Origin: Salinivirgaceae bacterium
Lineage (GTDB): Bacteria; Bacteroidota; Bacteroidia; Bacteroidales; Salinivirgaceae
Direction: 5' to 3'
DNA length: 38,352 bases
NCBI GenBank assembly: GCA_002869335.1
Contig: PKTE01000069.1
Location: 1-38,352 of the forward strand
The notes below the pieces were generated by a model, which was not told the origin of the DNA, did not search any database, and saw only the letters and a list, made by a program, of their open reading frames with translations. Below are positions 2,472-16,701 of the stretch, piece by piece (the stretch's first letter is position 1; each line of letters starts with the position of its first letter). The position numbers and the translations under genes are program-made.

Positions 2472-2972
2472 CTACGTAAAAATTATTTGTGTATTTTCTC
2501 CACCGGCTTTTTCATAAAATTCACCTATAGTTAAAACAGCACTTACCTCTTCGTGTAAATCCTCTTTTGTGAGCTTAAACATATCCATTGCCAGCTTACA
2601 TGCATAAATTTCGCCTCCTCCGGCAGTAATCATTTCAAGAAATTCATCTACAGGTGGAATGTCCAATGCATCCATTTGTTTTTTCATCATGGCTGATACT
2701 CCTGCTTCAACTCCAGGAATTCCTCCCAACCAAGTGGGAAAAGGTAATCCGCCAGGCATGCGCATGCCTGGGTTTCCTACTGTTGCAGTATGAAGCTTTT
2801 TCATTTGCTTTTTTGTAATGGCATCAAGCCCGAAAAATGTAAAAAACACCTTAGCTTCAATACCTTCCATTACTGCTCCATTGGCCATAACTAGAGTGGC
2901 ATATACGTCCTCAATACTTGCTTTGGCGCAAATAATACAGACTTTTTTTAATGGTTTATCTTCTTTACTCAT
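2472..2972 (-). CDS. DsrE2-like (DsrE/DsrF/DrsH family) sulfur-carrier protein
   Basis: The 166-residue protein belongs to the DsrE/DsrF/DrsH-like superfamily, closest in pattern to DsrE2: VCIICAKASIEDVYATLVMANGA at the start, FFTFFGLDAI, a Gly/Pro-rich middle (GNPGMRMPGGLPFP, WLGGIPGVEAG), and GGGEIYACKLAMDMF near the end. Cys125 in that last motif is the expected persulfide-carrying cysteine; Cys12 and Cys15 are extra. Family members hold sulfane sulfur and exchange it with TusA/TusE-type partners. It is the last gene of the SQR operon, 115 bases after the TusE-like gene, with a stem-loop in the gap. The usual membrane-anchor helices of some DsrE2 proteins are not obvious. Confidence 0.85.
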   Translation of the reverse strand: MSKEDKPLKKVCIICAKASIEDVYATLVMANGAVMEGIEAKVFFTFFGLDAITKKQMKKLHTATVGNPGMRMPGGLPFPTWLGGIPGVEAGVSAMMKKQMDALDIPPVDEFLEMITAGGGEIYACKLAMDMFKLTKEDLHEEVSAVLTIGEFYEKAGGENTQIIFT

Positions 2973-3001
2973 ATTTTCTTTTTTTTAGCTTAATTTTTTG
3001 G

Positions 3002-3082
3002 AAAAGTCACAGCATGCTTGCAAACATATAGTTATAAGTTGTTCTTTTCATAAGTCCATTTACAATACATGCCGTGACTTTT
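3002..3082 (-). repeat. Long stem-loop between tusE-like and dsrE2-like genes
   Basis: AAAAGTCACAGCATG (3002-3016) and CATGCCGTGACTTTT (3068-3082) form an inverted repeat with a 51-base loop. In minus-strand RNA, the sense of the operon, all 15 positions pair, one as G-U; in plus-strand RNA that position is an A-C mismatch. It occupies most of the 115-base gap inside the operon and lacks a following T-tract, so an RNA-stability or partial-attenuation role is more likely than simple termination. Confidence 0.6.
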
Positions 3083-3087
3083 AATTT

Positions 3088-3399
3088 TTATACGCAACTT
3101 GCTGGTTTAGGAATTCCAGCAAACTTTGAAGAAAGCTTAAGTGGTCCGCCTGGGAATAGCTGATAAAGACCTTTAATATCAGTAATGCCAGATTTACCTA
3201 CTTTACGAATAGATAGCGGCTCACCTGCAGCATGTTTCTCGCGTAAATATTCCAATACTTCGTAATGCTTGTCAGTTAGCTCAATGCCATCTTCTTTTGC
3301 AATCTCTGCAGCTACTTCACGACTCCAATCTTCCATGTTGGTTAAATAACCTTCGTCGTTTAACTGTACTGTTTTACCAGCGATTTCTTTTTCTGCCAT
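3088..3399 (-). CDS. TusE/DsrC-family sulfur-relay protein (single-cysteine form)
   Basis: At 103 residues this is the standard size of TusE/DsrC proteins, and it carries the family signatures: a start around LNDEGYLTNMEDWS, LTDKHYEVLEYLREKH in the helix-turn-helix-like core, IRKVGKSGITDIKGLYQLFPGGP, and a C-terminal arm ending GIPKPASCV. The penultimate Cys102 is the conserved sulfur-binding CysA. The second cysteine of true DsrC, eleven residues upstream, is Ser91 here. It should therefore carry a persulfide but not form the DsrC intramolecular disulfide/trisulfide; functionally it is a TusE-like carrier. It lies in the operon with SQR, DUF1641 and DsrE2-like genes rather than with dsrAB or tus genes. 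Confidence 0.9.
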   Translation of the reverse strand: MAEKEIAGKTVQLNDEGYLTNMEDWSREVAAEIAKEDGIELTDKHYEVLEYLREKHAAGEPLSIRKVGKSGITDIKGLYQLFPGGPLKLSSKFAGIPKPASCV

Positions 3400-3492
3400 A
3401 ATTATATTTTTTAATGATTATTTATCTATGATCTTAGATCAGTTTTGTTTACTAATTTGTTTTGGATTGTATTAAACCATTTACTTAATCAC

Positions 3493-4173
3493 TTACGCTT
3501 TTGGTTGGTTTGCAATGTTTTTTAAGAATGTAACTGCAAAACCAAGTGCTTTTTTCATTTCCGGTTTATTCATTTCACGCATTAATTTCCAAACAGAATA
3601 TTCAGGTACGTTTTCTACCTCCATACTTTGGTATACTTTCACAGCATTGTTTACTGCATCAAGCATTTCCGGCTGTGTGAGGTTTTTCACTGTTTGAAGA
3701 ATTGTTGAGATATTTTCAGCTAATTGTGTCACATCATCTTTCGAGAAATTGGTTACTATATTGTCTACCACATCTCCAAAAGCTGCAAAGAATTCGAAAT
3801 AACCTTTTTGCTCAAAAACATGAAGTTTTTTAGTTGCTTCGATAATTACTTCATTTACAATTGGACCAGCGTCTTTGATAAGGTCATTGGCACTTTCAAA
3901 TAGTGATATAACGTTACCAATGTTTTCAATATTCTTAATGAGCTTTACCACGATAATTTTAAGCGCATCCGGGTCTATTGAAACCTGTTGGTTTTCGAGT
4001 TCTTCAACCGAAGAATCATATATGTCTTTTCCCACAAGGGATAAATCCTTTACAAGGTCTTCAACAGCTTCGGCTTTTAGTCGCTGTTGATTCACATTGT
4101 CCAGAATCAGATCCATTTTGTGGTTCAGTTCATTTATTTGTGTTTGTATGTTTTGGTCTTCCATGGGTGTCAA
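3493..4173 (-). CDS. DUF1641 family protein
   Basis: The 226-residue protein is soluble and almost entirely helical. It begins with a coiled-coil-like segment (EDQNIQTQINELNHKMDLILD), and its second half holds the region recognised as DUF1641: LTQPEMLDAVNNAV, then a conserved end with EYSVWKLMREMNKPEMKKALGFAVTFLK. DUF1641 proteins have no established biochemical function but are repeatedly found next to sulfide:quinone reductase or Hdr-like genes in bacteria and archaea. Here the start codon lies two bases after the SQR stop, so the two are surely co-translated. A scaffold or membrane-recruitment role for the flavoprotein is an inference from this linkage only. Confidence 0.75.
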   Translation of the reverse strand: MTPMEDQNIQTQINELNHKMDLILDNVNQQRLKAEAVEDLVKDLSLVGKDIYDSSVEELENQQVSIDPDALKIIVVKLIKNIENIGNVISLFESANDLIKDAGPIVNEVIIEATKKLHVFEQKGYFEFFAAFGDVVDNIVTNFSKDDVTQLAENISTILQTVKNLTQPEMLDAVNNAVKVYQSMEVENVPEYSVWKLMREMNKPEMKKALGFAVTFLKNIANQPKA

Positions 4174-4175
4174 TT

Positions 4176-5414
4176 TTACAAGTTCACTTTTTTCTTTCCG
4201 GCCATGGTCATATCTGCTTCAATCGGCATCTCTTTTCCGCGTAGCAAAATGTGCCAGTAAATCCAACGGAACATGATTTTACCATAATGATTAATTCGGG
4301 TGTTTTTTAATAATCCGAAAGGGCCAATACCCGGTAATGGAAATGTACCCGGAAGCGGCTCTGTTTCGTAATTGAAATCAATTAACGCACCTTTTCCATG
4401 TCCTGTCTCAATGTAGCAATTGGCGTGACCGTCGAATTTGGCTAGTAGTGGTCTTCCTTCAATGGCACTCATGATATTGTCAAACAAAATTTCTGATGCA
4501 AAGTGAGCTACAGAACCAGCTTTTGAAGTTGGAATATTAGAAGCATCGCCCAGCACAAAAATATTTTCAAATGCGTTTGACTGCAAAGTATGCTTGTCGG
4601 TTGGTATAAAGTTGAGATCATCTCCCAATCCACTGCGCTCAACCATTTCGTCTCCCATGTTTAGAGGTACAATAGTTAGGGTGTCAAATGGCACCTCTTT
4701 TTCATCATAGGATACAAGTACCTTTTTATCATTATCTACACGTTCGATATAAAAGTCGGGTATTACCTCAATGTTTTTTTCTTTCAGCAATTCGCTGAGC
4801 ATTTTTGTAGCTACAGGTTTAGTAAATGCTCCCGGAAGAGGAGTTACTAATTTGATATCTACTTTGTCGCGCATGCCTTTTTTTGCAAAAAATTCTTCGG
4901 CCAGACACACAAATTCAATGGGTGCCACGGGACATTTGAAAGGCAATTCAGTGATGGCCATTACTAGTGTGCCGCCCTCCCAGCTTTTGAAATGACGCTG
5001 TAGAGCCACAGCTCCTTCAACTGTATAAAAGTCGAAAATGTCTTTATACCACAGTTTGTCTTTTAGTCCCGGAGTTTCATCAGGTCTGGTTTGTGTTCCA
5101 GTGGCTACAATTAGAATATCATAGTCTAAAGCTTTCCCATCTTCTAGCAGCACCTGATTTTTTTCACCAACGATCTTATCAATACCTTGGTAAATTACTT
5201 TTACTCCAGCAGGGAAAAAGTCACTTTTTGATTTTATTACGTCCTGTTTATTGTATATGCCAAATGGAATAAATAAAAATCCGGGTTGGTAATAGTGTGT
5301 TTTATGCTTGTCAACGATGGTGATTTCCCACTCGTCGCGGTCTAATGCCTTACGAAGTTTGTTGGCCATCATTGTTCCGGCTGTTCCACCGCCTAGTATT
5401 AATAATTTTTTCAT
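4176..5414 (-). CDS. Sulfide:quinone oxidoreductase-like FAD protein
   Basis: The 412-residue flavoprotein starts with a Rossmann FAD motif (MKKLLILGGGTAGTMMAN) and has ILIVATGTQTRPDETPGL and FVLGDASNIPTSKAGS, the second FAD contact. Cys161 in PFKCPVAPIEF and Cys333 in HANCYIETG match the two redox cysteines of SQR; a third cysteine found in some SQR types is absent. Cys170 is nearby. The C-terminal ~70 residues (PLPGIGPFGLL, IMFRWIYWHILLRG) suit monotopic membrane attachment. It should oxidise sulfide to sulfane sulfur and reduce menaquinone. The start at 5414 is preferred over an in-frame one 92 codons upstream, which would add low-complexity sequence and swallow the regulatory region. Confidence 0.85.
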   Translation of the reverse strand: MKKLLILGGGTAGTMMANKLRKALDRDEWEITIVDKHKTHYYQPGFLFIPFGIYNKQDVIKSKSDFFPAGVKVIYQGIDKIVGEKNQVLLEDGKALDYDILIVATGTQTRPDETPGLKDKLWYKDIFDFYTVEGAVALQRHFKSWEGGTLVMAITELPFKCPVAPIEFVCLAEEFFAKKGMRDKVDIKLVTPLPGAFTKPVATKMLSELLKEKNIEVIPDFYIERVDNDKKVLVSYDEKEVPFDTLTIVPLNMGDEMVERSGLGDDLNFIPTDKHTLQSNAFENIFVLGDASNIPTSKAGSVAHFASEILFDNIMSAIEGRPLLAKFDGHANCYIETGHGKGALIDFNYETEPLPGTFPLPGIGPFGLLKNTRINHYGKIMFRWIYWHILLRGKEMPIEADMTMAGKKKVNL

Positions 5415-5482
5415 AAGATTATATTTTATATTTTTAATGATTCTGGTTTTATCAACTTTAGATATCCAGATATTTGCATATT

Positions 5483-5490
5483 CAAATTTA
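5483..5490 (-). promoter_or_regulatory. Possible -7 box of the SQR operon
   Basis: The minus strand reads TAAATTTG, matching TAnnTTTG, about 69 bases before the SQR start codon. There is no TTG at the expected -33 spacing; the FNR-type palindromes lie a little further upstream, as expected for an activator-dependent promoter. Confidence 0.35.
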
Positions 5491-5523
5491 CGTAATGGTT
5501 TCCCTTGCGTTGAATTTGTCAGT

Positions 5524-5554
5524 ATGATGATTATCATGGTATGATATTTATCAT
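5524..5554. promoter_or_regulatory. Two FNR-type operator palindromes in the divergent sqr / fnr-like region
   Basis: ATGATGATTATCAT (5524-5537) and ATGATATTTATCAT (5541-5554) are each perfect 5-N4-5 inverted repeats, the second extended to 16 bases. They match the FNR box TTGAT-N4-ATCAA except for the outermost base. Their centres are 17 bases apart. They lie 26 bases before the FNR-like start codon and 110 bases before SQR, so the regulator probably controls both itself and the sulfur operon. Confidence 0.75.
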
Positions 5555-5579
5555 AACACTTGATTAACAGAATAAGGAT

Positions 5580-6263
5580 ATGGACCCTAATTGTACGTGT
5601 GAGAAATGTGAGTTGAAAAGTCTTTTCTTTCAGAGTGTTAGTGAAGAGGAGTTGTTCAACGTTTGCAATAATAAAAAGGAAAATGAGCATAAAAAAGGAG
5701 ATTTAATTATCGCAGAAGGAAGCGTAATTAAAGACTTTATCTATCTTAAAAGTGGTTTGGTAAAGTTGTATAAAACAACACGAGACCATGAGCAAATATT
5801 AAAATTTGCAGGACCTTTCGATTTTGTGAGCATTCTTAATATTTTTAGTCATAATAAACATCAATATTCGGTGATGGCTTTGGAGGACTCTGTTACATGC
5901 CATGTGGATTTTGCTGAAGTTCGGAATATGGTGTTGGAAAATGGGGTGTTTGCCCATGGCTTACTTCAAAAAATGGGACAGGTTTCTGACAGCATTATAC
6001 AGGAGTCTCTTCAGATTCGGCGACATAATTTGAAAGGTCGTGTAGCCATTGTGTTGCTCTATTTTGCTAATAGGGTATATGAAAAAGATGAGTTTGAACT
6101 TCCTCTCTCACGGAAGGAAATAGCCGAGTATATTGGTAAAACAACTGAAAATGTCATTCGTGCCCTATCAGATTTTAGAAAAAGTAATATCATTAAGATT
6201 TTTGGAAAAGTAATTGAAATTATTGACAAAGAAAGATTGGAAAGGTTGTCAAAATTTGGTTAA
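5580..6263 (+). CDS. Crp/Fnr-family regulator with FNR-like cluster cysteines
   Basis: The 227-residue protein has an N-terminal cyclic-nucleotide-binding-type beta-roll (about residues 20-125), a dimerisation helix, and a Crp helix-turn-helix (LSRKEIAEYIGKTTENVIRALSDF, about 176-199). Glu190 and Arg194 take the places of FNR Glu209 and Arg213. Cys5, Cys7 and Cys10 form a CxCxxC motif at the N-terminus. Cys107, in ALEDSVTCHVDF, aligns with FNR Cys122 (ALETSMVCEIPF), so a [4Fe-4S] O2 or NO sensor is plausible. It is divergent from the SQR operon, has two palindromes just upstream, and is followed 12 bases later by a sensor kinase. That it controls the sulfur operon is inference. Confidence 0.85.
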   Translation: MDPNCTCEKCELKSLFFQSVSEEELFNVCNNKKENEHKKGDLIIAEGSVIKDFIYLKSGLVKLYKTTRDHEQILKFAGPFDFVSILNIFSHNKHQYSVMALEDSVTCHVDFAEVRNMVLENGVFAHGLLQKMGQVSDSIIQESLQIRRHNLKGRVAIVLLYFANRVYEKDEFELPLSRKEIAEYIGKTTENVIRALSDFRKSNIIKIFGKVIEIIDKERLERLSKFG

Positions 6264-8083: not shown

Positions 8084-8458
8084 ATGAACCCAATAAAACG
8101 TAAAAAAATGAAAAGCCTTAAAACTTTAGCCTTAGTGATGACAATGACTTTTGCATTTGCTATGACATCAAATGTAAATGCAGCAGAATTATCAAAAAAC
8201 AAAGCTGTACAATTAAGCAAAGTTCAAAAAGTTATGGACCGTGCAGTTGATTTTCCACAAGAAGCTCGCGAGCTAGGAATAACAGGTACAGTAAAAGCCC
8301 AAATTGAAGTTGGATTAGATGGAAAAATCGAAGTAGAAGAGATAAATGGTCATCCGGAATTAACAGCTTACGTTGCGAAACAATTGAAAAATGTTTCAAT
8401 TAATGATATCTCATTAACAGGTCAATCGTTTATCGCAAAATTTGACTTTAGGAATTAG
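8084..8458 (+). CDS. Small secreted TonB-C-like protein (paralog 1)
   Basis: The 124-residue product has a signal peptide (hydrophobic run ending SNVNAAE) and a mature region of about 85 residues that resembles a shortened TonB C-terminal fold: FPQEARELGITGTVKAQIEVGLDGKIEVEEINGHPEL, compared with the YPxEAxxxGIxGxVxVxFxVxxDGxV pattern of TonB-C. There is no transmembrane anchor or Pro-rich linker, so it is not an energy transducer itself. The C-terminus (FIAKFDFRN) is shared exactly with the paralog at 8844. A second start at 8108 (MKSLKTL) fits the signal peptide equally well. Function is unknown; a periplasmic binding or assembly role is a guess. Confidence 0.75.
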   Translation: MNPIKRKKMKSLKTLALVMTMTFAFAMTSNVNAAELSKNKAVQLSKVQKVMDRAVDFPQEARELGITGTVKAQIEVGLDGKIEVEEINGHPELTAYVAKQLKNVSINDISLTGQSFIAKFDFRN

Positions 8459-8843: not shown

Positions 8844-9218
8844 ATGAAAACTCTAAAATTTAAAAACCCAATCCGATTTACGGCAATTATTGCCGCTATT
8901 CTATTCTCATCTACTTTGACTTTTGCTAAAACCCCTCCTGCAAACGTATTTAATAATCTTGCTGAGGTTCAAAAAGAAATGTTGCGAGGACAATTAGATG
9001 ATAAAATTGATTTTCCAATGGAAGCTAAGCAATGTGGAGCTTGTGGAATTGTTAAAGCAGAACTAACAGTTGCCGAGGATGGCAGTCTTATTATTAACGA
9101 AATTAATGGGCATCCAGATTTCAAAAGCTATGTGCAAAGGCAATTAAATGAAGTAACCATTGCCGATTATAATTTAATTGGTAAAACATTTATCGCAAAA
9201 TTCGATTTTAGAAATTAG
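8844..9218 (+). CDS. Small secreted TonB-C-like protein (paralog 2, with CxxC)
   Basis: This 124-residue paralog of the gene at 8084 has a signal peptide (FTAIIAAILFSSTLTFAKT) and the same mature fold, with IDFPMEAKQCGACGIVKAELTVAEDGSLIINEINGHPDF and an identical end, FIAKFDFRN. It differs by a CGAC motif at the loop where paralog 1 has LGIT, so it may hold a disulfide or metal that the other cannot. Both are the same length and share a promoter-like motif, so they are probably a tandem duplication under one control. Function is unknown. Confidence 0.75.
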   Translation: MKTLKFKNPIRFTAIIAAILFSSTLTFAKTPPANVFNNLAEVQKEMLRGQLDDKIDFPMEAKQCGACGIVKAELTVAEDGSLIINEINGHPDFKSYVQRQLNEVTIADYNLIGKTFIAKFDFRN

Positions 9219-11588: not shown

Positions 11589-13031
11589 ATGAGAAATCGA
11601 AAATCAATATTTTTTAAGTTTCAGGGTCTGGCAATAGTTTTAGTTGCAATAATTTTAACAACATCTTGCAACAACGAGCCTAAAAATGTTGTTTCTGCCC
11701 CCAAGGCAATTAACCCGTTGGAAAACCGAATGATTCCTCATCTTGACCACACTGCGTATTATCCTGATTCTATCAGTAGTCCACAGGAACTGACAAAGTC
11801 ATGTTTAGAGTGTCATCCGAATAGTGCTAAGGAGGTAATGAAGACTCCACACTGGACGTTTTTAAGCGGTGATGTCGAAAGAAATGGAGAGCATATTCGT
11901 ATCGGTAAGAAAAATCAAATTAATAATTTCTGCATCAGTATAGTGGGTAACTGGGCCAGATGTACTAAATGCCATGCTGGATATGGTTGGACTGATGAAA
12001 ATTTTGATTTTACAGCTGAAGAAAATGTTGATTGCCTTGCTTGTCATGACGGATCGGGTACATACGTTAAAGATACAAGCGGTGTCCCAATGAAAGGTGT
12101 TAATTTACAAGTGGCAGCACAAAGCGTGAGCAGACCGAAAAATGATAATTGCGGTGCATGCCATTTCAATGGAGGAGGAGGCATGGGCGTTAAGCATGGC
12201 GACCTTGATGAGTCTTTACTAAATCCAAATGAAGAACTGGATGTACATATAGGAAAACTTAATTTCCAGTGCGTTGATTGTCACACTACTGAGCATCACC
12301 TTGTATCAGGTAAGGTTAATAATACTTATACTGAGAGAACGACATCAAAAAGGTTTGATTGCGAAAAATGCCATACTGATAAACCCCATACAGATGGTCG
12401 TCTCAATATACATACAGAAAGAATAGAATGTCAAACATGTCATATTCCCGAATATGCACGTAAACTCCCTACAAAAATGACCTGGGATTGGGGAAAAGCT
12501 GGTGATAGCACTAGAGAAGAGAATGTTCATGAATATTTAAAGATAAAGGGAGAGTTTACCTACGAAAAAAATGTTATTCCCACGTATGCCTGGTTTAACC
12601 ATAAAATGGACAGGTATATACTCGGTGATCCTGTGGACCCTGAAACTGAGAATTTAATTAATAAACCCCTTGGCTCCAGAGATGATAAAAAATCTAAAAT
12701 ACATCCTTTTAAAGTTCATATTTCAAAGCAGCCTTATGATGAGGTAAATAAATATTTGATTCCACCATTAACAAGCGGTAAAGGAGGTTTTTGGAATGAA
12801 TTTGATTGGCCTTCTGCTATTAGAAAAGGTGCTGAATTCAACAATCTTCCTTTTAGTGGCGAATGCGATTTTATAGAAACAAAAATGTATTGGCCTATAA
12901 ATCACATGGTAACAACCAAAGATAATGCATTAAAATGTACAGATTGTCATAGTGAGAATAGCCGTATGGATTGGAAGGCATTGGGATATGGGGAAGATCC
13001 AATAAAACATAGTAATAAACAATTGAACTAA
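11589..13031 (+). CDS. Octaheme c-type cytochrome, tetrathionate reductase family lipoprotein
   Basis: The 480-residue protein has eight CXXCH heme-binding motifs, starting at residues 72, 125, 149, 188, 228, 258, 281 and 450; the last stands well apart, as in the Shewanella octaheme tetrathionate reductase (OTR) family. A lipoprotein-type signal (ILTTSC, Cys27) suggests membrane anchoring on the periplasmic or outer side. Family members reduce tetrathionate, and in vitro nitrite or hydroxylamine; the physiological substrate is open. The next gene starts six bases downstream, and the operon goes on with sulfur-transport proteins and a quinol-oxidising cytochrome, which favours a sulfur oxyanion. 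Assignment of the catalytic lysine ligand was not attempted. Confidence 0.85.
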   Translation: MRNRKSIFFKFQGLAIVLVAIILTTSCNNEPKNVVSAPKAINPLENRMIPHLDHTAYYPDSISSPQELTKSCLECHPNSAKEVMKTPHWTFLSGDVERNGEHIRIGKKNQINNFCISIVGNWARCTKCHAGYGWTDENFDFTAEENVDCLACHDGSGTYVKDTSGVPMKGVNLQVAAQSVSRPKNDNCGACHFNGGGGMGVKHGDLDESLLNPNEELDVHIGKLNFQCVDCHTTEHHLVSGKVNNTYTERTTSKRFDCEKCHTDKPHTDGRLNIHTERIECQTCHIPEYARKLPTKMTWDWGKAGDSTREENVHEYLKIKGEFTYEKNVIPTYAWFNHKMDRYILGDPVDPETENLINKPLGSRDDKKSKIHPFKVHISKQPYDEVNKYLIPPLTSGKGGFWNEFDWPSAIRKGAEFNNLPFSGECDFIETKMYWPINHMVTTKDNALKCTDCHSENSRMDWKALGYGEDPIKHSNKQLN

Positions 13032-13037
13032 AGTAAC

Positions 13038-13559
13038 ATGGAAAACAAACAACGACCAGTTAAAAACCCGTATTTTGCAGGGATTATTCTTGGAATTGTT
13101 CTTTTTGCAGCATTTGCCCTAACACAAGGTGGGCTTGGAGCTTCCGGTGCACTGAGCCGTATAAACATAGCTATTACAAAAGTATTTGCTCCTGAACATG
13201 TTGACCATGTCTCTACCTTTGCTGCAGCAGCAGCAGGAGATAAAAGCGCATTAGATCATGCAAGCATATTCCTTTTGATAGGAACGTTTGTTGGAGGTAT
13301 GGCATCTGCTTTTTTCAACAAAAGACTTAAAGTTGAGGTGTTTAAAGGCTCACGAATAACAAAACCACAAAGGTTATTCTTTGCTCTTCTTGGTGGAATA
13401 ATAATGGGCTACGGAGCTAGGTTTGCCCGTGGTTGTACATCAGGACAAGCATTATCTGGAGGAGCTGTTCTTTCTCTTGGTAGTTGGGCATTTATGTTTA
13501 GTGTTTTTATTGGTGGCTATGCTGTAGCATACTTCGTTCGTCGCCTTTGGTTAGATTAA
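13038..13559 (+). CDS. YeeE/YedE-family membrane protein (half-size sulfur transporter)
   Basis: The 173-residue inner-membrane protein has about four hydrophobic helices and the YeeE/YedE (DUF395) signature GARFARGCTSGQALSGGAVLS, with Cys133 as the conserved cysteine. In TsuA, a thiosulfate importer of this family, such cysteines line the path and pass the substrate along by weak S-H-S contacts. Full-size members hold two such halves; here the second half is the next gene, 24 bases on. The pair probably assembles into one transporter for thiosulfate or another reduced sulfur species. Confidence 0.85.
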   Translation: MENKQRPVKNPYFAGIILGIVLFAAFALTQGGLGASGALSRINIAITKVFAPEHVDHVSTFAAAAAGDKSALDHASIFLLIGTFVGGMASAFFNKRLKVEVFKGSRITKPQRLFFALLGGIIMGYGARFARGCTSGQALSGGAVLSLGSWAFMFSVFIGGYAVAYFVRRLWLD

Positions 13560-13583: not shown

Positions 13584-14780
13584 ATGTTACCTATAGAAAT
13601 TTTATCAGAATTAGGAAAAATCGGAGGATACGCAGTATTCTTACTTATAGGAATCGGCTTTGGAGTTGCTCTTGAATTAGCAGGTTTTGGAGACTCCAGA
13701 AGATTAGCTGCACAATTTTACTTTAAAGATATGACAGTATTAAAGACTATGTTTACTGGTATAATAGTCGCAGCAATACTTATATTTTTATCAGCAGCCA
13801 TAGGAATACTGGATTTCTCACAAATAATAGTTAATAAAACATTTTTATGGCCAGGTATTGTTGGCGGACTTATCATGGGGGTAGGCTTTATTGTTGGAGG
13901 ATATTGCCCCGGTACCTCTGTTGTGGCCGCATCAAGCTTCAAAATTGATGGTCTTACATTCCTTGTAGGGGCGATAATAGGTACGGGACTGTTTGGTGAA
14001 ACTGTTCCATTTTTTGATGAATTCTGGAACTCTTCCTATACTGAAAGATTACTAGTTTCTGATTGGCTAGGATGGTCTATCGGAGCAACAGTATTTGCAA
14101 TTGTAATTATGGCGCTTGTAATGTTTTATGGTGCCGAAAAAGTTGAAGAATTCTTTAAATTTAAAGGATCCGGTAAAAAAGTATCATGGAAAATAACAAA
14201 AAAAGCATATAAAATTGGTGCTGCGGCATTATTTACAATGGCACTTCTGGTGTGGATTATCGGACAACCTGATCTTGACCGAAAATGGGAAATAATGGAA
14301 AGCAAGTATGGTCCACAATTAGACTCTAAAGAGGTAGTTATAAGTCCATTAGAGTATGTTAAGACATATAATGACGCTAGTTTAAGACTTGTTACTTTAG
14401 ACCTAAGATCTCCGAAAGCTTTTAATGAATTTAAGATAAAAGGCTCAAAAAATGCAAATTTGGAGAATCTTCGTGATGCTGAATATGTAAAGCACCTTGC
14501 CTCTTTACCCGCGAACGGATTAGTTATTCTTATTGCTGATGACTACGCTGTTGCTGAACAGGCATGGAAATACCTTAAAGTTCAGAACGTAATAAATGTA
14601 TATATCATGGAGAATGGATTAAAAGATTATAATGAGCTTTTTGCCGATAAAACAATCCATGGAGAAGAAATAGATTTAGCTTCTCCTCCTGCTGAACTAC
14701 TGCATCTATTCCCTGAAGATGCATACATTTCTAAAATAAAAATTGTTACTAAAAAACGTGCCGGAGGATTATGCGGATAA
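13584..14780 (+). CDS. YeeE/YedE membrane protein fused to a degenerate rhodanese
   Basis: The 398-residue protein has an N-terminal YeeE/YedE half (about 1-190) with GGYCPGTSVVAASS, Cys108 being the conserved cysteine. After another membrane helix (about 210-230) comes a rhodanese-like domain (about 265-360: LVTLDLRSPKAFNEFKIKGSKNANL, then LVILIADDYAVAEQAWKYL). The rhodanese active-site loop has no cysteine (IADDYAVAEQ). Instead the protein ends RAGGLCG, with Cys397 next to last on a flexible tail. Direct sulfur transfer by the rhodanese domain is therefore unlikely, while the tail cysteine could take persulfide. It probably pairs with the 173-residue protein upstream. Confidence 0.8.
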   Translation: MLPIEILSELGKIGGYAVFLLIGIGFGVALELAGFGDSRRLAAQFYFKDMTVLKTMFTGIIVAAILIFLSAAIGILDFSQIIVNKTFLWPGIVGGLIMGVGFIVGGYCPGTSVVAASSFKIDGLTFLVGAIIGTGLFGETVPFFDEFWNSSYTERLLVSDWLGWSIGATVFAIVIMALVMFYGAEKVEEFFKFKGSGKKVSWKITKKAYKIGAAALFTMALLVWIIGQPDLDRKWEIMESKYGPQLDSKEVVISPLEYVKTYNDASLRLVTLDLRSPKAFNEFKIKGSKNANLENLRDAEYVKHLASLPANGLVILIADDYAVAEQAWKYLKVQNVINVYIMENGLKDYNELFADKTIHGEEIDLASPPAELLHLFPEDAYISKIKIVTKKRAGGLCG

Positions 14781-14829: not shown

Positions 14830-16701
14830 ATGAAAAATACATCATCAATAATCAATACAACAATATTAATTTTAATATTAGGATTTCTATCATTAGCGGG
14901 GTTTTCACAAAACAAAAATATCTATTCCTATTCAAATGATAATTGTCTTAGTTGTCATAGTAAGCATGTATCTGTCGATGATTATAACACCTCTGTACAT
15001 AAGGTGTTAAAGTGTAATGCTTGTAACGTCCCAGTTGAAGATATACATGGCAAAACAGATTCATTAGGTCACAAAAAAACCTGTATTAGTACTTTTAAGC
15101 AAACAGATTGTAAAGCTTGTCATAAAGATCAAGTAGCACAACATGAAAATAGTATTCACAATTCAGAAAGGCTACCAGTAAATTGTGCTCAATGTCATAG
15201 TGATATCCACGCAATTAAATCAATAAAAGGTAATAAAACAGCTACAGCAGAGTTATGTGTTAAATGCCACAAAAACCAAACTGAATTCTTCAGTTCAGTT
15301 CACAACACGGCTCTTGAAAAAGGAAATAATGACGCTGCTACTTGTACTGATTGTCATGGTGTCCATAATATCGAGAAAATTGATAATTATGCCCAAGGAC
15401 GAGAGTTTCATACAAAAGCATGCATGACATGTCATTCAGATACTGCAATGATGTCTAGAAACGATGTTTCTACTATTGCAGCTAAAACATACTTTGAGAG
15501 CTATCATGGTAAAGCAGTACGCCTTGGAAACGTTGAGAAAGTTGCAGGGTGTTCTGATTGTCATAGTTCCCACCACATTTTGCCGGCAAGTGATTCTATA
15601 TCAACAATTAACAAAAATAACCTTGTTAATACATGTATGCAATGTCACCCTGGCTCAACAGAAAACTTCGCTAAGTTTATGCCTCATGCCGATGCCCATA
15701 ATAAAAGCAAGAATCCTGTTTTGTATTGGGTAACCTTATTCATGAATGGTCTATTGATTGTTACATTCCTGTTTTTCTTGGTACACTCTTTAATGTGGGC
15801 ATATAGAAGCTTTGCAGAAATGAAGGCAAATAAGGTGAAAGGTATTTCACTAAAAGAACAAAAAAATTCAAAGCAAAAAGTTTATCGTCGCTTTAATAAG
15901 AGGCATATTATTTTACACTTATTCGTAGTTACAAGCTTCTTGGCATTATCAATAACCGGTCTTCCTTTAAAATTTAATGATACCCAATGGGGGAAAGTAC
16001 TTATGGATTTTCTTGGTGGAGTTAAAAGCGCTGGTATTATTCATCGTGTAGGGGCAGTTGTTACCTTTGGGTATTTCTTTATCACACTATACTTAACAGG
16101 AAGATTTCTTTTTACAAGAAAAGTATCTGATCAACCATTTTTAAAACGCCTGTTTGGTGTTGATTCACTTTTCCCTAACAGAAGAGACATGAAAGATTTG
16201 CGTGCTATGTTCCGTTGGTTTGTGTTTAAAGGCCCTAAACCTACTTTCGACAGATGGACATACTGGGAAAAGTTTGATTTCCTTGCGGTATTCTGGGGAG
16301 TTGCAGTTATTGGCTCAAGTGGATTAATGCTTTGGTTCCCTGAATTCTTTAGTAATTTTATGCCGGGATGGACTTTTAATGTGGCTACAATAGTTCACTC
16401 AGATGAAGCACTATTGGCAACAGGTTTCATATTTACAATTCATTTTTTCAACACTCATTTTCGTGCAGAGAAATTCCCTATGGATTTCGTTATTTTTAAC
16501 GGGCAAGTGACTGAAGAGGAAATGAAAAGCGAACGCCCGGAACTATTGAAAAGATATGAAGAAGAGGGTACTCTTGATAAATATTTGGTTAAGAAACGAA
16601 GCTCATTAGCCTGGGATATTTCTTTACGATTATTTGGTTTTACTGCTCTTTTAACAGGCATAGTGCTCGCGCTGCTAATATTATTTTCATTTATAGGATA
16701 A
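14830..16701 (+). CDS. Multiheme cytochrome c / cytochrome b fusion, probable quinol dehydrogenase
   Basis: The 623-residue protein has a signal peptide (about 1-26) and a periplasmic cytochrome c part to about residue 285. That part has eight CXXCH motifs (at 39, 94, 119 and 143, then four more up to about 270) and one altered motif, CNACN at 62-66. Five membrane helices follow, at about 300-325, 355-375, 400-425, 480-545 (two, with HSDEALLATGFIFTIHFF) and 595-620. Their histidines (KRHIILHLF, IIHRVG, VHSDEAL, TIHFFNTHF) suit b-type hemes as in cytochrome b561/FdhI-type proteins. It likely oxidises menaquinol and feeds the octaheme protein at 11589. Confidence 0.8.
   Translation: MKNTSSIINTTILILILGFLSLAGFSQNKNIYSYSNDNCLSCHSKHVSVDDYNTSVHKVLKCNACNVPVEDIHGKTDSLGHKKTCISTFKQTDCKACHKDQVAQHENSIHNSERLPVNCAQCHSDIHAIKSIKGNKTATAELCVKCHKNQTEFFSSVHNTALEKGNNDAATCTDCHGVHNIEKIDNYAQGREFHTKACMTCHSDTAMMSRNDVSTIAAKTYFESYHGKAVRLGNVEKVAGCSDCHSSHHILPASDSISTINKNNLVNTCMQCHPGSTENFAKFMPHADAHNKSKNPVLYWVTLFMNGLLIVTFLFFLVHSLMWAYRSFAEMKANKVKGISLKEQKNSKQKVYRRFNKRHIILHLFVVTSFLALSITGLPLKFNDTQWGKVLMDFLGGVKSAGIIHRVGAVVTFGYFFITLYLTGRFLFTRKVSDQPFLKRLFGVDSLFPNRRDMKDLRAMFRWFVFKGPKPTFDRWTYWEKFDFLAVFWGVAVIGSSGLMLWFPEFFSNFMPGWTFNVATIVHSDEALLATGFIFTIHFFNTHFRAEKFPMDFVIFNGQVTEEEMKSERPELLKRYEEEGTLDKYLVKKRSSLAWDISLRLFGFTALLTGIVLALLILFSFIG

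Follow-up and report, generated by a model that had tools for sequence, protein, structure and literature searches.

One of the closest described systems to the protein considered here is TsuA/YeeE, a thiosulfate transporter with conserved pore cysteines, represented by Spirochaeta thermophila structures 6lep and 8k1r. For SoxT, another YeeE-like importer, persulfidated SoxYZ has been proposed as the carrier that releases the sulfur to be taken up (accessible text of PMC11582611). In lucinid symbionts, a SoxY variant and SoxZ are encoded beside an octaheme cytochrome of the tetrathionate reductase (OTR) family, and the SoxY arm has the motif VTIGGC (accessible text of PMC11237559). We analyzed a 38,352-nucleotide stretch of contig PKTE01000069.1 from a Salinivirgaceae bacterium (the window), in which a YeeE-type transporter appears to be split between two adjacent genes, the second of which also encodes a rhodanese-like domain and a cysteine-bearing tail. 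The features of this cassette are as follows.

11589..13031, + strand: octaheme c-type cytochrome of the OTR family; 8 CXXCH motifs; TIGR04315, 543.6 bits (cut-off 375)
13038..13559, + strand: YeeE/YedE first half, 173 aa, with conserved RGC133TSG; Pfam PF04143, 82.6 bits; Cys133 invariant in alignment A3
13584..14780, + strand: YeeE/YedE second half with rhodanese-like domain and cysteine tail, 398 aa; Foldseek matches to rhodaneses, and to TsuA when joined to the first half
13905..13907, + strand: codon of pore Cys108, motif GGYCPGT; invariant in 39/39 rows of alignment A1
14385..14633, + strand: rhodanese-like domain, residues 268-350; Pfam PF00581, 32.4 bits (cut-off 22.2)
14535..14537, + strand: codon of Ala318, at the catalytic-Cys position of active rhodaneses; Cys in 3/105 homologues
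14763..14777, + strand: tail GGLCG, with the Cys397 codon at 14772-14774; Cys invariant in 39/39 A1 rows
14830..16701, + strand: membrane cytochrome with a multiheme c part and a cytochrome b561-like part, presumably a quinone link; weak Pfam/NCBIfam matches

Both halves belong to the YeeE/YedE family (82.6 and 63.0 bits against a PF04143 cut-off of 27, the second over residues 43-235 as Sulf_transp), and Cys108 and Cys133 are both invariant, consistent with the pore cysteines of a TsuA-like fold. The TsuA thiosulfate transporter models NF052577 and NF041049 gave 34.7/400 and 26.6/645 bits with the first half and did not match the second; no NCBIfam model reached its cut-off for the second-half protein or four of its homologues. 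Because a PDB sequence search with this fusion returned no match at E up to 1, we turned to fold searches. The AlphaFold model of the fusion, built from 39 sequences, was of moderate confidence (mean pLDDT 78.8), with residues 391-398 below 50 and the end of the tail left unmodelled; its Foldseek matches were rhodaneses, and for most single-domain matches the TM-score by target length was 0.6-0.78. When the two halves were modelled together, as the first-pass annotation had proposed, here in the form of a read-through, the top matches were TsuA-TsuB (8k1r) and TsuA (6lep), with TM-scores of 0.42-0.52 by target length and E-values of 1.3e-3 to 3.6e-3, supporting a TsuA-like fold, but the model itself was again of moderate confidence (mean pLDDT 69.6). 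Neither model gave a match under E 0.001, the best E-values being about 0.001-0.002, and our statements on fold therefore rest on the TM-scores, Pfam and the agreement of family assignments. The window transporter shares with TsuA its family, fold and conserved pore cysteines, but differs in being split into two genes and in having an extra last helix, an outside rhodanese-like domain and the cysteine tail.

The first-pass annotation had described a rhodanese-like domain lacking its active-loop cysteine and a protein ending in Gly-Gly-Leu-Cys-Gly, and both descriptions proved correct. The domain has the rhodanese fold and Pfam match without the loop Cys, as Ala318 aligns with the Cys of active rhodaneses from the same loci; the catalytic Cys is absent in 102/105 aligned homologues and kept in three (L057, L111 and L130; loci carry labels in L, genomes in G), the column being mostly Ser, Ala or Gly. 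The C-terminus reads ...KKRAGGLCG, and the 398-aa protein has two cysteines in total, Cys108 in the pore motif and Cys397 in the tail.

Homologues at E 1e-10 or better were present in 64 of 395 Bacteroidota genomes, and a contig scan yielded 42 loci from Bacteroidota, Bdellovibrionota, Chloroflexota, Pseudomonadota and other groups. Of the 80 stretches that we examined (up to 20 kb each), 67 surround a second-half match and 13 surround an OTR gene that lacks one. Alignment A1, with its 39 rows, omits L040, which stops short of its TGA, and three loci that are cut off (L061, L069 and L071). Many flavobacterial genomes encode the rhodanese-like part on its own, as a membrane-anchored protein whose gene comes immediately after that of the YeeE half; this protein, too, is Cys-ended. 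Among closed ORFs whose rhodanese-like domain is fused to, or directly follows, the second YeeE half, the Cys lay within the last four residues in 97/99 (73/74 fused, 24/25 separate). Seven ORFs missed by the rule or the HMM and added by hand brought this to 104/106; as six of the seven were chosen partly for their Cys ending, 97/99 is the unbiased figure. The endings include GGLC[GS], SGGCG, xGGC and KKKxEGC, and 40-89 residues (fused) or 49-76 residues (separate) lie between the domain end and the tail Cys. One exception, L141, has a frameshift, with its ...KKKKREGC tail in another frame; the other, L040, has TGA exactly at the Cys codon and reads ...SGGG TGA GGC TAA, with the usual Gly and stop after it. 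The first-pass annotation had specified beforehand that an unconserved tail Cys, or a loop Cys in most homologues, would count against it, and the alignment gave neither. Together, the dead loop and retained tail suggest that the sulfur-handling thiol has shifted from the loop to an arm.

We also considered a chance origin of the tail Cys. Among the other ORFs in these loci that reach at least 150 aa, 33/1475 have Cys in their last four residues, and on this background we rejected chance. At L124:8631-9245 (- strand), a second rhodanese-like protein, also GGC-ended, adjoins the usual tail protein, and two more rhodanese-like proteins are encoded there.

The rhodanese-like domain and tail are predicted to lie outside the cytoplasm. 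Loops between the predicted helices have mean net charges of +1.3, -0.9, +1.0, -0.5 and +2.2, alternating along the protein with the 196-206 loop the most positive, a pattern that by the positive-inside rule places the domain outside; in 22/25 of the separate proteins, the residues flanking the anchor are more positive on its N-terminal side than on its C-terminal side, indicating an N-in/C-out orientation. The first-pass annotation had proposed that the tail cysteine accepts arriving sulfur and hands it to a TusE-like or DsrE2-like carrier. The carrier role is strengthened by the selenocysteine variants described below, but direct handover to a DsrC/TusE-like or DsrE2-like protein is unlikely, because these proteins are presumably cytoplasmic and the prediction puts domain and tail across the membrane from them. 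The tail probably works between redox enzymes of the periplasm and the pore. The composition of the tail raises a different reading, that a lysine-rich GGC end is a structural or assembly signal, binding a metal ion or docking on the heme of a cytochrome. The 14 residues before the Cys have a median net charge of +4, and multiheme cytochromes are frequent among the partners, as this reading would have it; against it, the same tail also accompanies molybdoenzymes and a secreted rhodanese at loci that lack OTR, and the roles for which selenocysteine is better known are redox and nucleophilic ones. We consider a ligand function very unlikely.

Further evidence on the tail came from Chloroflexota, whose tails were located by HMM-anchored reading. 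A class-wide sample of 298 genomes contained 51 with a match; tails were read in 47 of the 51 (two additional genomes, G931 and G1064, were left out), and four (G395, G572, G605 and G529) have TGA in the tail. An order-wide sample, in which 5/25 genomes matched, added TGA-tailed G703, and G656 of this sample retains the tail Cys. The five genes encode ...GGG-TGA-Gly-stop, with stops TAA, TGA, TAA, TAG and TGA and the register kept in 5/5; an in-frame TGA aligned to a conserved Cys, here seen in five genomes, is expected of bacterial selenoproteins. They form one branch of an 83-row tree (SH-aLRT 99), indicating a single origin of the TGA tail; the other four proteins are 58-68% identical to the L040 protein.

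A 17-nt hairpin follows each tail TGA, with 7 pairs and a 3-nt loop of GGC or GTT (6 pairs and 5 nt in the scan), beginning 12-13 nt past the TGA in all five genes. The stem is of the AGCCGC type and the loop opens with G and then G or U, 18-20 nt after the TGA by either loop count; one pair varies from A-T to C-G and another from A-T to T-G, with pairing preserved in both. The bSECIS model calls for a 3-9 nt loop, a 4-16 bp stem, a G in the first two loop positions, a spacing of 16-37 nt and an energy of -7.5 kcal/mol or lower (accessible text of PMC13188914). With a stem of at least 6, these constraints fit 5/5 TGA-tail genes, compared with 11/77 Cys-tail genes and 268/10000 dinucleotide shuffles (hairpins compared TGA-anchored; duplicates L032, L040, L053, L058 and L072 removed; L061 and L069, cut by the contig end, counted as having no tail). 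The passing hairpins of the 11 Cys-tail genes were different ones, mostly longer and with other start positions.

The pore cysteine shows the same substitution in three of the five genes (G572, G529 and G703), where GG[FY]-TGA-PGT lies inside an otherwise conserved frame and is accompanied by a second, identical stem-loop, GGTAGC-GGTC-GCTACC; the remaining two retain Cys in the pore. SelA was found in 4/4 tested genomes of the TGA-tail set (G703 outside the four), and tRNA-Sec in G395, G572, G605 and G703 (65-71 bits; anticodon TCA in the three checked); in G529 it was not found, the best match being a tRNA-Ser. At a strict limit of E 1e-60 or better, SelB was above cut-off in 2/4 TGA-tail genomes. 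The L040 genome has tRNA-Sec (67.8 bits) and SelB (326.6 bits, cut-off 242), although SelB alone is not specific, being above cut-off in 11/12 genomes tested alongside L040. No selenocysteine was seen within the OTR of the selenocysteine-tail clusters L040, L223, L224 and L225.

These TGA codons could instead be plain stops, the tail cysteine having simply been lost. Their restriction to a single clade, a hairpin that could be a terminator and the missing tRNA-Sec of G529 would suit such a loss, but the Gly codon and stop remain in register in 5/5, the hairpin keeps one spacing and a compensated pair, SelA (4/4) and tRNA-Sec (4/5) are present, and in three genes the pore TGA falls inside a conserved frame, making a plain stop highly improbable. 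The tail residue of the five Chloroflexota relatives is thus, judging from their genes, apparently selenocysteine. Selenocysteine in YeeE (motif GUxSG) and, separately, in an OTR-family protein has already been listed (accessible text of PMC13188914), so the occurrence of selenium in a YeeE/OTR system has a precedent. Neither the GUPGT nor the GGGUG site found here matches the listed YeeE motif, and the GGGUG tail is absent from the selenoprotein listing in that accessible text.

That selenocysteine takes precisely these two places, tail and pore, argues that both residues perform nucleophilic or redox (chalcogen) chemistry, and the near-invariant Cys, apparently replaced by selenocysteine in five relatives, makes the tail probably a built-in sulfur-passing arm. 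The same pairing can be read as a redox gate, in which a disulfide between the tail and pore cysteines opens or closes the channel according to periplasmic redox state and no sulfur is carried. A protein with two cysteines only, both of which become selenocysteine together in 3/5 genes, as in a selenenylsulfide or diselenide pair, would fit a gate. The pore Cys is nevertheless kept in 2/5 of the selenocysteine-tail genes, and a gate leaves the association with three kinds of sulfur enzyme unexplained; we judge it distinctly unlikely. A further YeeE copy, without the rhodanese-like domain, occurs at L040:15579-16250 (+ strand), with TGA at its pore Cys (GAGF-TGA-PGT) and beside a three-heme protein and a PhsA-like molybdoenzyme.

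A sulfur redox enzyme accompanied the cassette in 66/68 Bacteroidota loci. At distances of up to 6.5 kb from these 68 second halves, we found OTR in 36, a PhsA-like molybdoenzyme in 25, a secreted tandem rhodanese in 5 and no partner in 2, of which one lies on a short contig and the other is a YeeE half without rhodanese. The contig scan, with 43 second halves, gave OTR in 33, OTR with a molybdoenzyme in 1, a molybdoenzyme in 2 and none in 7, several of the last being on short contigs or having an OTR missed by the gene caller. The OTR-family assignment of the window's own partner is supported, beyond its TIGR04315 score and 8 CXXCH motifs, by a match to PDB 1sp3 (E 3.8e-131), and homologues of the membrane cytochrome lie directly downstream in L031-L037. 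The PhsA-like molybdoenzyme scored 512.7 bits for PhsA (cut-off 694) and has NrfC-like and NrfD-like partners. As the partner enzyme varies between loci, the substrate is not fixed. Conversely, OTR does not require the cassette: of 61 OTR genes above cut-off, 36 adjoin it and 25 do not (tables read by hand). A further OTR gene of the genome from which the window comes is located on a different contig and has no YeeE cassette beside it (L170, G000:C254:4808-6073).

Elsewhere in the window lies a set of genes that is possibly the cytoplasmic side of the cassette.

2472..5690, - strand: DsrE2-like, DsrC-like and DUF1641 proteins and a sulfide:quinone-oxidoreductase-like flavoprotein; Pfam

The same four-gene set adjoins an OTR-YeeE cassette in different phyla, at L055:979-3794 and L060:12660-15754, and this is consistent with a link to the cassette in the window. 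Other features of these neighborhoods were also recorded. An 11-heme cytochrome like ExtM stands beside the PhsA-like cluster in L107 (250.6 bits, cut-off 800), L109, L112, L114, L121 and L128. In the window, two neighboring 124-aa proteins (8084-8458 and 8844-9218, + strand) are an apparent tandem duplicate, with CGAC before the shared C-terminal part only in the second (8844-9218). In many Chloroflexota loci (e.g., L055:4791-5129), an ArsR-type repressor that resembles TsoR (61.6 bits, cut-off 115) and BigR lies directly upstream of OTR; the selenoproteins TsoA, TsoB and TsoC are among those listed (accessible text of PMC13188914).

The outside location, the flexible tether and the periplasmic sulfur-enzyme neighbors suggest a shuttle in which the arm carries sulfane sulfur between an enzyme and the pore. 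In the mechanism that we favor and consider reasonably likely, the two adjacent genes would form one split YeeE transporter in which a tethered, SoxY-like swinging arm relays sulfane sulfur from periplasmic enzymes to the pore and on to cytoplasmic carriers. The rhodanese-like domain of the second half would lie outside the cytoplasm, no longer catalytic, and extend into a flexible tail rich in lysine. At a sulfur redox enzyme of the periplasm, which in the window would be the OTR-family octaheme cytochrome that the membrane cytochrome feeds, the reactive Cys397 of this tail would load sulfane sulfur, either as a persulfide or as an S-thiosulfonate. The tail would then offer the sulfur to pore cysteines Cys108 and Cys133, the latter in the other half, from which it would pass to the cytoplasmic carriers. 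Covalent loading, docking and the loading species are what we infer from this arrangement. The arm might instead work in export: cytoplasmic sulfane sulfur would leave through the pore and load the tail Cys, and the periplasmic OTR or Phs-like enzyme would reduce it off as sulfide with electrons from quinol via the membrane cytochrome. In favor of export, reductase function is known for OTR and PhsA relatives, the cassette has its own quinone-linked cytochrome, the relatives of cytB match the family of the cytochrome b subunit of thiosulfate reductase, and the SQR-like flavoprotein, DsrC and DsrE2 encoded upstream could supply sulfur. The characterized family members TsuA and SoxT are, however, described as importers (accessible text of PMC13047784 and PMC11582611). 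We therefore regard an export arm as rather unlikely and favor import, which would fairly probably be the direction of the relay.

The relay has in common with SoxT1A/SoxT1B and SoxYZ a proposed YeeE-like import from a periplasmic swinging-arm carrier (accessible text of PMC11582611), but there carrier and transporter are separate proteins, whereas the protein in the window has its arm attached, on a domain with the rhodanese fold. Like SoxY, the extracytoplasmic part (placed there by charge only) has a Gly-rich C-terminal arm with one conserved Cys, and the sulfur intermediates proposed here follow by analogy from the shared Gly-Gly-Cys tail; unlike SoxY, a different domain precedes the arm, and the likeness is a three-residue motif with no sequence homology found. 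The SoxY profile TIGR04488, which is named for GGCGG, the SoxY arm motif in its longer form, had no match in the window's genome, and no SoxY model was among the NCBIfam matches of the window protein. In the open-access literature searched, including the accessible text of PMC12142623, PMC13047784, PMC11582611, PMC11237559, PMC6548844, PMC13188914 and PMC9312934, there was no account of the cysteine tail. We would give an even chance to the broader reading that a split YeeE channel with a tethered arm is an undescribed, widespread plug-in, a dock for at least three unrelated periplasmic enzymes (octaheme OTR, a Phs/Psr-type molybdoenzyme and a secreted rhodanese), in which arm and pore thiols form one relay with selenocysteine at both ends in some Chloroflexota.

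To our knowledge, little has been established about how sulfane sulfur passes between enzymes of the periplasm and pores of the YeeE type, and the fused arm makes one such route explicit and testable by a single cysteine change. The native substrate of OTR-family octaheme cytochromes is debated, and the cassette supplies a physiological context for them; should OTR act on sulfur bound to a protein and not on free tetrathionate, the substrate chosen for in vitro assays may have been the wrong one. Standard annotation would end the five selenocysteine-tail genes one codon short of the reactive residue, yet it is these genes that, with no experiment needed, mark the two residues that matter.
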